64,000 nucleotides of DNA from positions 1 through 64,000 of the forward strand of contig JACPDW010000036.1 in NCBI GenBank assembly GCA_016183815.1. Reading direction: 5' to 3'. Made by a program: the position numbers and the translations under genes. Each line of letters opens with the position of its first letter. The first letter of the stretch is position 1. The notes beneath the pieces are model-generated. The model had not been told where the DNA came from, ran no database searches, and was given only the letters and a program-made list of their open reading frames with translations. This DNA is from Flavobacteriia bacterium (GTDB lineage: Bacteria > Bacteroidota > Bacteroidia > Flavobacteriales_D > Crocinitomicaceae). Positions 1,752-4,531 of the stretch are shown here, in pieces.

Positions 1752-3446
1752 ATGAAAAAAATAATAATTATTTGTTTGTTTTTAGGATTAAAAGCAGTAC
1801 AAGCCCAAGATGCTTATCCAGATTTAATTAAAAATGTAGGAGTTGGAGTAGGAGGTTATGATGTGGGTAACGACAGAGATGGAAACATTTATGTTGCTGG
1901 AGCAGGAGTTGTATATTTAAGTGATGATGAATTTTTACCTCATCAGAATTATGATGGTTATATAGTTAAATATTCTTCACAAGGTGAGGTACTGTGGGCA
2001 AAAAGAATGGGGGGGGAGGGTAATAGCGATTTGGTTTATAGTATATCTGTGTATAACGATGCGGTGTATGTTATAGGAGGATTTAGAGACAGTATGAATT
2101 TCAATAATCCTCCTTCATGGGAAAGTTTTGTTTTGTATTCAGATGAAACGAATATTTATAACGTTTTTTTGGCAAAATACTCATTAGAGGGAGATTTTAT
2201 ATGGGCTAATAGATTTACTGTATATGGTTTTTATCATGTAACTTCTTCCTTAGAAGGAGTGTATGTAAGTTCTGGTTTTAAAGACAGCATCAACTTTAAT
2301 ACACCAACAGATTGGAGCTCCAATAGTTTATATGCCATTGGAGACACAAGCGACATTTTTATCGCTAAATATAGCCATGAAGGTGATTTTGAGTGGGCGA
2401 AAAGATACGGCGGTCTGAAGCGTGAAGATGTTCTAGCACTAGATGCAAGTGGGGGTAAATTATACGTATGTGGTTATTTTGATGATACACTTAATTTTAG
2501 CCCTTACTACGAACCCAGTTCTTTTGAAGTCTATGCAGAAGGTCAATATGATGCTTTTATGGTTCAGTTAGACATGGAAGGCAACCCTCTTTGGGTCAAA
2601 AGAATGGGAAGTACTAACGGTGCAATAGCACACGACATCGATGTATATAACAATAAAATTTATGTCACAGGTACTTCTTCAGCTCAGATGAATTTTGAAA
2701 CCCCTTACAACCCTAATGCAGCAGTTTTAACATACCCTATTGGAGGGGGCATTCATTCATTTTTAGCCCAGTTCAACCTCGATGGAGAAGTACAATGGGC
2801 TGCTACATTAGACGGTACTTATTCATGGTCTCGTGGTGTAGAAGTAGGAGAAAGAGGCGTATATTGTACCGGTGGTTTTGAAGAAAGTATATCTGTAAAC
2901 TTTAGTTTTTCTGATTACCAATTTATAGCCAGTGCTCAGGGTGATAGGGATGTTTTTTTATGTAAATTTAGCCATGAAGGCATTTTTCAATGGGGCAAAA
3001 GAGGAGGAGGAGTTTATAAAGAATTTGCTAATTCAGTGTCCTTATACGATAAAAGTGTTTATATTGTTGGAGAAAGTTGGTCAGGTGGTTTAATGAATTT
3101 TAACACCCCCTGGGCAACGGGTAGCAATGAGATATTCTGTACTGGTTCTTTTTTAGCAGAGTTTGTAGAAAGCGAAGCAGGTTTGGAAGAATCCAACTTT
3201 TCCCCCTTTGGAGGGGGGCAGGGGGGAGGAACAACTGTAATTCCCAACCCCAACAACGGTAGTTTTACTCTGCAAAACTCTGCAACAACCATCAAAGAAT
3301 TAACACTCTACGATGCACAAGGCAGAAAACTGTATGATTTAGAGAAAAACTCTACAAAAGTTGAATTAAATTTGCCAAAAGGCGTATATTTTTTAGAGAT
3401 TATTTCCGAAAATAGTAGGAAAATTGAAAAAATTGTGGTAAATTAG
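1752..3446 (+). CDS. T9SS-secreted SBBP-repeat (beta-propeller-like) protein
   Basis: The 564-residue protein starts with a signal peptide (Lys-Lys then a hydrophobic stretch ending AVQAQ). Residues ~30-465 hold repeated units with motifs such as DGNIYVAGA, YIVKYSSQGEVLWAKRMGG and VYVIGGF. These are typical of SBBP-type propeller repeats on Bacteroidota surface proteins. The last ~65 residues (IPNPNNGSFTLQ to EKIVVN) are a type A sorting domain, so export by T9SS is expected. The linker between propeller and sorting domain, about residues 482-492, is encoded by a G-rich palindromic repeat (3199-3230) and reads SPFGGGQGGG. A second, promoterless copy of the sorting domain lies ~240 bp downstream. 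Ligand and function are unknown. Confidence 0.88.
   Translation: MKKIIIICLFLGLKAVQAQDAYPDLIKNVGVGVGGYDVGNDRDGNIYVAGAGVVYLSDDEFLPHQNYDGYIVKYSSQGEVLWAKRMGGEGNSDLVYSISVYNDAVYVIGGFRDSMNFNNPPSWESFVLYSDETNIYNVFLAKYSLEGDFIWANRFTVYGFYHVTSSLEGVYVSSGFKDSINFNTPTDWSSNSLYAIGDTSDIFIAKYSHEGDFEWAKRYGGLKREDVLALDASGGKLYVCGYFDDTLNFSPYYEPSSFEVYAEGQYDAFMVQLDMEGNPLWVKRMGSTNGAIAHDIDVYNNKIYVTGTSSAQMNFETPYNPNAAVLTYPIGGGIHSFLAQFNLDGEVQWAATLDGTYSWSRGVEVGERGVYCTGGFEESISVNFSFSDYQFIASAQGDRDVFLCKFSHEGIFQWGKRGGGVYKEFANSVSLYDKSVYIVGESWSGGLMNFNTPWATGSNEIFCTGSFLAEFVESEAGLEESNFSPFGGGQGGGTTVIPNPNNGSFTLQNSATTIKELTLYDAQGRKLYDLEKNSTKVELNLPKGVYFLEIISENSRKIEKIVVN
3199..3230 (+). repeat. G-rich palindromic repeat, copy 1 (inside a coding sequence)
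   Basis: The core CCCCCTTTGGAGGGGG is a near-palindrome followed by a second G-run and AGGA. The same arrangement recurs at 3967-4000. Copy 1 is in frame in the secreted propeller protein, where it encodes SPFGGGQGGG just before the sorting domain. Confidence 0.8.
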
Positions 3447-3620: not shown

Positions 3621-3686
3621 TTTCTCACAGTCTTTCCCGAATTTTCGGGATTGCTTACTTTTTCATCAAGGAAAAAGTAATGAAAG
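3621..3686 (+). repeat. Composite palindromic repeat, copy A
   Basis: The unit starts TTTCTCACAGTC, contains the palindrome CCCGAATTTTCGGG, then TTACTTTTT and the facing arm AAAAAGTAATGAAA. Copy B at 4417-4485 has the same order of elements with a few substitutions and a slightly longer loop. The two copies flank the orphan sorting domain and the DUF559 gene. Confidence 0.8.
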
Positions 3687-3687
3687 A

Positions 3688-3894
3688 TTTCCCAATCCCA
3701 ACAACGGAAGTTTTACTTTTCAAACAAATTCACTAGAAATCCAAGATTTAACACTTTACGATGCTCAAGGCAGAAAACTGTATGATTTAGACAGAAACTC
3801 CACAAAAATTGAGTTGAATTTATCAAAAGGAGTGTATTTTTTAGAGATTATTTCAGAAAATAGTAGGAGTTTAGAGAAAGTTGTGGTAAATTAG
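3688..3894 (+). pseudogene. Orphan T9SS sorting-domain fragment (duplicated 3' end)
   Basis: The 68 codons from FPNPNNGSFTFQ to EKVVVN and a TAG stop closely match the last ~68 codons of the upstream propeller gene, including the stretch LTLYDAQGRKLYDL. No passenger domain, signal peptide or start codon is attached. The fragment follows directly on the palindromic repeat copy A, as if the 5' part of a paralogous gene had been lost or replaced. The mix of synonymous and replacement changes between the copies suggests it is not a very recent duplication. It is probably not translated on its own. Confidence 0.75.
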
Positions 3895-3966: not shown

Positions 3967-4000
3967 CTTTCCCCCTTTGGAGGGGGATTAAGGGGGAGGA
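3967..4000 (+). repeat. G-rich palindromic repeat, copy 2 (upstream of DUF559 gene)
   Basis: It reads TTTCCCCCTTTGGAGGGGG, then ATT and AAGGGGGAGGA, matching copy 1 at 3199-3230. Its last 11 bases, AAGGGGGAGGA (3990-4000), occur in inverted orientation just after the DUF559 gene (4406-4416). Confidence 0.82.
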
Positions 4001-4026
4001 AATTTAACTATTAAATTAAACGAAAA

Positions 4027-4392
4027 ATGATTAACAACCATTACAACAAAAACCTCAAAAATTATGCAAATGAACTTCGAAATGAAAGTGTTTCAAAAGC
4101 AGAAAAATACATTTGGAAATCACTTCTATCTAGAAAACAACTCGGAGTAGGATTTAAAAGACAAAGACCGATTTTGAATTTTATTGTTGATTTTTTTTCA
4201 GCTGAGATAGGTTTAATAATTGAAATTGATGGAAGTTCACATATCAACAAAGGGGAATACGATTTTTATCGTGAAAAAAAATTAAAAGAAAATGGCTTTA
4301 AAATGCTTAGATTTGAAGAAGGTCAAGTATTAAATAATATAGGTGAAGTACGTTTAAAATTAATACATACAATAGAATGTTTGAAAGAATAA
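4027..4392 (+). CDS. DUF559 endonuclease-like protein (Vsr-related fold)
   Basis: The 121-residue protein has the DUF559 pattern: an N-terminal helix (RNESVSKAEKYIWKSLL), then FKRQRPILNFIVDFF, IGLIIEIDGSSH and, near the end, GFKMLRFEEGQVL. DUF559 belongs to the PD-(D/E)XK / very-short-patch-repair-like nuclease group. The Asp of FIVDFF and the Glu-Ile-Asp of IIEIDGSSH are the likely metal ligands. Its length is normal for the family and there is no signal peptide, so it is cytoplasmic. The gene stands alone and is flanked by AAGGGGGAGGA at 3990-4000 and its reverse complement at 4406-4416, which suggests a small mobile or repeat-associated cassette. Substrate and role are not known; mobility is inference. 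Confidence 0.88.
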   Translation: MINNHYNKNLKNYANELRNESVSKAEKYIWKSLLSRKQLGVGFKRQRPILNFIVDFFSAEIGLIIEIDGSSHINKGEYDFYREKKLKENGFKMLRFEEGQVLNNIGEVRLKLIHTIECLKE

Positions 4393-4405
4393 TAAATTTT
4401 ATTAG

Positions 4406-4416
4406 TCCTCCCCCTT
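4406..4416 (-). repeat. Inverted 11-bp partner of the G-rich repeat
   Basis: TCCTCCCCCTT is the exact reverse complement of AAGGGGGAGGA at 3990-4000. Together the two arms bracket the DUF559 gene with 405 bp between them. It lies directly beside composite repeat copy B. Confidence 0.75.
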
Positions 4417-4485
4417 TTTCTCACAGTCATTTCCGAATTTTCGGGATTGTATACTTTTTTTGTGTCAAGACAAAAAGTAATGAAA
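4417..4485 (+). repeat. Composite palindromic repeat, copy B
   Basis: It has the same order as copy A: TTTCTCACAGTC, CCGAATTTTCGG, TACTTTTT, a GTCAAGAC loop region and AAAAAGTAATGAAA. The arms TACTTTTT and AAAAAGTA can form a hairpin. Repeats of this type are, from general knowledge, frequent between genes in Bacteroidota. Confidence 0.8.
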
Positions 4486-4531
4486 TACAATATATTGCCT
4501 ACTTCAATTGATTTTATTAATTTTGTTTTAA

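Follow-up and report, generated by a model that had tools for sequence, protein, structure and literature searches.

A small predicted DNA-cutting enzyme of unknown function, DUF559, is repeatedly encoded between copies of one kind of short palindromic repeat in many bacteria, and enzyme type and repeat type match. This suggests that the enzyme is the missing partner that helps these repeats and its own gene spread, although cleavage and transposition are inferred. The association was first noted in the window, a stretch of 64,000 nucleotides from a Flavobacteriia bacterium (GCA_016183815.1, contig JACPDW010000036.1, positions 1 to 64,000). It was found to be far beyond chance and widespread. 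No paper linking DUF559 with such repeats was found, although most subscription papers lay outside the literature searched.

The DUF559 cassette in the window and its genome

The original prediction of a DUF559 gene bracketed by 11-bp inverted arms was confirmed. The sequence AAGGGGGAGGA lies at 3990-4000 (+), and its exact reverse complement TCCTCCCCCTT at 4406-4416 (-). These are the only two copies in 64 kb, against a mean of 0.00 in 100 dinucleotide shuffles. The ORF between them (4027-4392, +; 121 aa) is separated from the arms by 26 and 13 bp and matched PF04480/DUF559 (COG2852, YcjD family) with 93.7 bits against a curated cut-off of 20.6 (E = 7.8e-27). The left arm is the tail of a complete repeat, TTTCCCCCTTTGGAGGGGGATTAAGGGGGAGGA (3968-4000, +), consisting of a hairpin CCCCCT-TTGG-AGGGGG (3971-3986), a linker, and a G-rich tail pointing at the gene. 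The complete unit comprises a C-rich/G-rich hairpin, a linker of 3-5 bases, and the tail. The right arm is a truncated inverted copy of which only the tail remains.

The genome (3.24 Mb, 44 contigs) holds four DUF559 matches. Two of them, on contigs C1 and C2, are 94% identical to the window protein over the part present, and both sister cassettes end in the full inverted repeat TCCTCCCCCTTTGTCCCCCTCCAATGGGGGAAA. The hairpin 16-mer has 9 exact copies plus 3 with one mismatch, whereas the reversed control gave none, and three of the four DUF559 genes have a copy within 100 bp. Contigs C1, C2 and C8 of this genome begin inside DUF559 cassettes or repeats, so the assembly probably collapses further copies and the true copy number may be higher.

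A second feature had been missed in the original prediction. A 66-70 bp palindrome-containing sequence (3621-3686, + and 4417-4486, +; 91% identical over its first 43 bp) brackets the segment that holds the cassette as a direct repeat. The right copy abuts the truncated right arm, and the 21-bp core occurs only twice in the genome, both here. Between the direct repeats, a second, partial copy (83% identical) of the C-terminal sorting-domain coding end of the neighbouring protein is carried together with the cassette (3689-3894, +). It forms a tandem partial duplication with 3241-3446, separated by the 66-bp palindromic repeat, and a similar arrangement ends contig C8. The arrangement looks as if a segment had been copied in together with its flank, which is an inference.

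A dispersed copy of the repeat was located at 3200-3230 (+), in frame inside ORF 1752-3446, where it encodes SNFSPFGGGQGGGTT. Eight of the twelve copies in the genome lie inside open ORFs, including ileS, a sufD-like gene and T9SS-type genes. Orthologues of ileS vary in length at the insertion point, so no exact empty site could be read there. The sufD-like gene shows an extra segment of about 7-11 aa, which relatives lack. The paralogous T9SS-type genes on contigs C13, C44 and C40 carry the repeat at nearly the same place in opposite orientations, with remnants, and therefore do not serve as empty sites. In other genomes, most of 20 sampled copies are intergenic or near gene ends, but in-frame cases occur, one of them in a leucyl-tRNA synthetase-like ORF (leuS-like; contig C28, position 249293) of genome G017. 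This genome has five hairpin copies and no detected close DUF559 gene.

The protein was modelled with AlphaFold2 (pLDDT 91.4), and a Vsr-like PD-(D/E)XK/EDxHD fold was predicted. In 64 sequences, D55 and E66 are invariant, and D68, G69 and H72 are conserved in at least 90%. The nearest solved structure was 3hrl, a gonococcal DUF559 protein (N. gonorrhoeae NGO0050), followed by 3r3p, the catalytic domain of the homing endonuclease I-Bth0305I (E = 6.8e-4; TM-score 0.84 by target length). 1vsr ranked fifth. I-Bth0305I is described as an EDxHD homing enzyme acting on an exceptionally long target (PMC3943268), which makes spread by cut-and-repair plausible but does not prove it.

Association, specificity and presence or absence in other genomes

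A scan of genome contigs returned 80 DUF559 loci, about 60 close and 20 more distant, including Planctomycetota (Brocadia), Chloroflexota and Nitrospirota records. A scan of viral contigs gave only 8 distant relatives. In the 250 bp on either side, an inverted repeat with a score of 33 or more brackets 54% of 76 usable genes, against 1.2% of 255 control ORFs on the same contigs and 0.07% of shuffles. Left and right repeats of one locus match better than those of different loci (p = 1.6e-8). C-rich hairpins occur at 3.6-6.5 per kb within 100 bp of the gene and at 0-0.17 per kb beyond 1 kb, in both sets and in near and far phyla alike. Long direct repeats (score 70 or more) bracket the gene in 41% of loci against 0.5% of controls.

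Elsewhere, the layout is complete in Deinococcus and Pseudanabaena, recognisable in Picosynechococcus, and one-sided in Photobacterium, Azospirillum and Sphingomonas. In cyanobacterial plasmids (loci L198, L199 and L206), DUF559 genes lie among defence-like genes (PglX of BREX, DUF499/DUF1156), sometimes overlapping the neighbouring ORF. In E. coli, such repeats lie downstream of ycjD (locus L195, 3361-3576). This hairpin-tail repeat, CCCCTCGCCCCTCTGGGGAGAGGGTTAGGGTGAGGGG, occurs at a median of 19 places (2 to 35) per E. coli genome, as determined by a similarity search. It is possibly the BoxC family, reported as 56 bp long with 32 copies (PMC2267715), an identity inferred in part from copy number. 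The ycjD gene is present in some phylogroups and replaced by eefRABCD in others (PMC12817139).

The repeat tails fall into classes. In the close set there are two broad ones, GGGGGAGGA (A) and the GGGAGGTG/GGAGGGTG/GGGGGATG group (B). On a tree of 54 proteins the class changes only twice, against a mean of 18.2 for shuffled labels, with 0 of 500 shuffles as low. Four MAGs hold nucleases of both clades, each with its own repeat class (loci L066 with L089/L106, L068 with L086, L058 with L060, and L059 with L096). This argues against a mere property of the genome, with the caveat that bins can be impure. A record titled Glaciecola amylolytica (Gammaproteobacteria; CP034120.1) carries a DUF559 gene that groups firmly with Fluviicola proteins, which indicates horizontal transfer or a mislabelled genome.

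Presence or absence of the cassette was compared between relatives. Brumimicrobium aurantiacum has the cassette between two conserved blocks 789 bp apart, whereas in a congener the blocks are 77 bp apart. The latter site still holds one repeat-like remnant, so loss is as likely as gain there. Deinococcus psychrotolerans has the cassette between paaD and paaZ (521 bp between the genes, 56-bp inverted ends), whereas Deinococcus sp. QL22 has 83 bp and no cassette. These relatives are only about 74-79% identical in DNA, so exact insertion points are not resolved. Congener comparisons for two further loci (L082 and L031) gave no clean empty site. In a Sphingomonas plasmid a DUF559 gene (locus L202, 2977-3387) lies between sufB and sufC, which are closer together in other taxa. 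Contigs C1 and C2 of the window genome share 341 bp at 99.4% identity and then diverge just beyond the repeat, so that near-identical cassettes sit at different sites in one genome. Loci L121 and L125 share only 459 bp at 92%.

The original prediction had proposed a small mobile cassette, or a nuclease that spreads or acts on these repeats as RAYTs do for REPs. This interpretation is supported. Both tests named there, enrichment beside DUF559 genes and empty-site polymorphism, came out in its favour.

ALTERNATIVES

The data are best explained, with somewhat better than even confidence, by a small mobile element in which a predicted Vsr-fold DUF559 nuclease gene lies between copies of a hairpin-plus-G-tail repeat (REP-like; in pairs REPIN-like) that the nuclease recognises. 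In the proposed cycle, the nuclease cuts or nicks DNA at such repeats or at repeat-like targets. Host repair then copies in either the repeat alone, giving the dispersed copies of which some land in frame in genes, or the whole repeat-nuclease-repeat unit with some flanking sequence. Recombination between the direct repeats can remove the gene again. Cleavage, the copying step, and the spreading of the dispersed repeats by DUF559 are inferred. The gene is usually present at one to a few copies per genome, while repeats reach about ten or more.

The dispersed copies could in principle be moved by another enzyme, such as a RAYT or another IS200/IS605-type transposase, with DUF559 genes merely tolerated or captured as passengers. 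The window genome has two Y1_Tnp matches, 25 of 35 genomes searched have at least one, and repeats occur in genomes without a detected close DUF559 gene. However, no Y1_Tnp match lies near a copy of the repeat in the window genome or in genomes G008, G010, G011, G017 and G018, the repeat class follows the DUF559 tree also within single MAGs, and the repeats are enriched beside DUF559 over other genes on the same contigs. That RAYT-type genes are not the movers is therefore likely but not proven, and the passenger explanation was considered unlikely. An ordinary insertion sequence, with DUF559 as a cut-and-paste or copy-and-paste transposase acting on terminal inverted repeats, was judged equally unlikely. 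The inverted ends of up to 56 bp in Deinococcus, the interruption of the paa gene run, and the near-identical copies at two sites are in its favour. On the other hand, repeat orientation varies (tail inward in Bacteroidota, outward in Deinococcus and Chloroflexota), and the ends are often doublets or arrays. No consistent short target duplication was seen, as far as could be read from relatives too diverged to resolve the junctions, and long direct repeats are frequent instead. A lone PD-(D/E)XK-like domain of about 120 aa also does not appear to be a known stand-alone transposase.

A role of the repeats as transcription terminators, RNA-stability elements or expression controls of the nuclease gene, kept by selection and not mobile, was regarded as very doubtful. 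Stable hairpins lie at both gene ends, and such roles are hypothesised for REPs elsewhere (PMC3733652). However, hairpins are nearly absent beyond 1 kb, where other genes lie on the same contigs, the same repeat is dispersed in frame in coding sequence, and the cassette is absent at orthologous sites. Neither class matching nor the long direct repeats are explained by such roles.

Relation to known systems and biological meaning

The layout is that of REP/REPIN elements with RAYT transposases (REPtrons; PMC3116915, PMC3733652), namely a short palindrome with a distinctive tag or tail, dispersed in the genome, with pairs in inverted order, a nuclease gene flanked by the same repeats, and a repeat class matched to the enzyme lineage. 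The partner, however, is a nuclease of predicted Vsr-like fold and not an HUH tyrosine enzyme (Y1_Tnp), and the tails are G-rich (GGGGGAGGA, GGGAGGTGA, GGAGGGTGG, GGGGTGTGT, GGGTGAGGG) and not GTAG or CGTC. In addition, several copies lie in frame within genes, and the gene is often bracketed by long direct repeats. Since two defining features were tested and not found, the element was not assigned to the RAYT systems.

With the homing endonuclease I-Bth0305I the protein shares the predicted catalytic-domain fold and the proposed route of spread, but it has no attached DNA-binding region and no intron, and is associated with dispersed palindromes rather than one conserved gene site. E. coli Vsr and the Vsr-like Caulobacter VsrA belong to the same fold superfamily. 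VsrA is reported to contain a DUF559 domain and to cause DNA damage in some backgrounds; it was proposed to act in mismatch repair, and no repeat association was reported (PMC12907096). Rickettsia palindromic elements also appear to be inserted in frame in protein-coding genes, including essential ones, but seem to differ in sequence and size and to have no known nuclease partner.

About as likely as not, DUF559/YcjD proteins across bacterial phyla are the dedicated mobilising nucleases of a second, RAYT-independent superfamily of REP/REPIN-like palindromic elements, which would include the G-rich repeats of Bacteroidota, Cyanobacteria, Chloroflexota and Deinococcota and the orphan repeat beside ycjD in E. 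coli. REP-like palindromes are among the commonest repeats in bacterial genomes, and many families have no known mover. DUF559 is a large family of unknown function, often labelled a very-short-patch-repair-type endonuclease. Matching the two would explain both at once. It would also give a testable partner for an E. coli repeat family, and account for in-frame insertions of palindromes in essential genes such as ileS.
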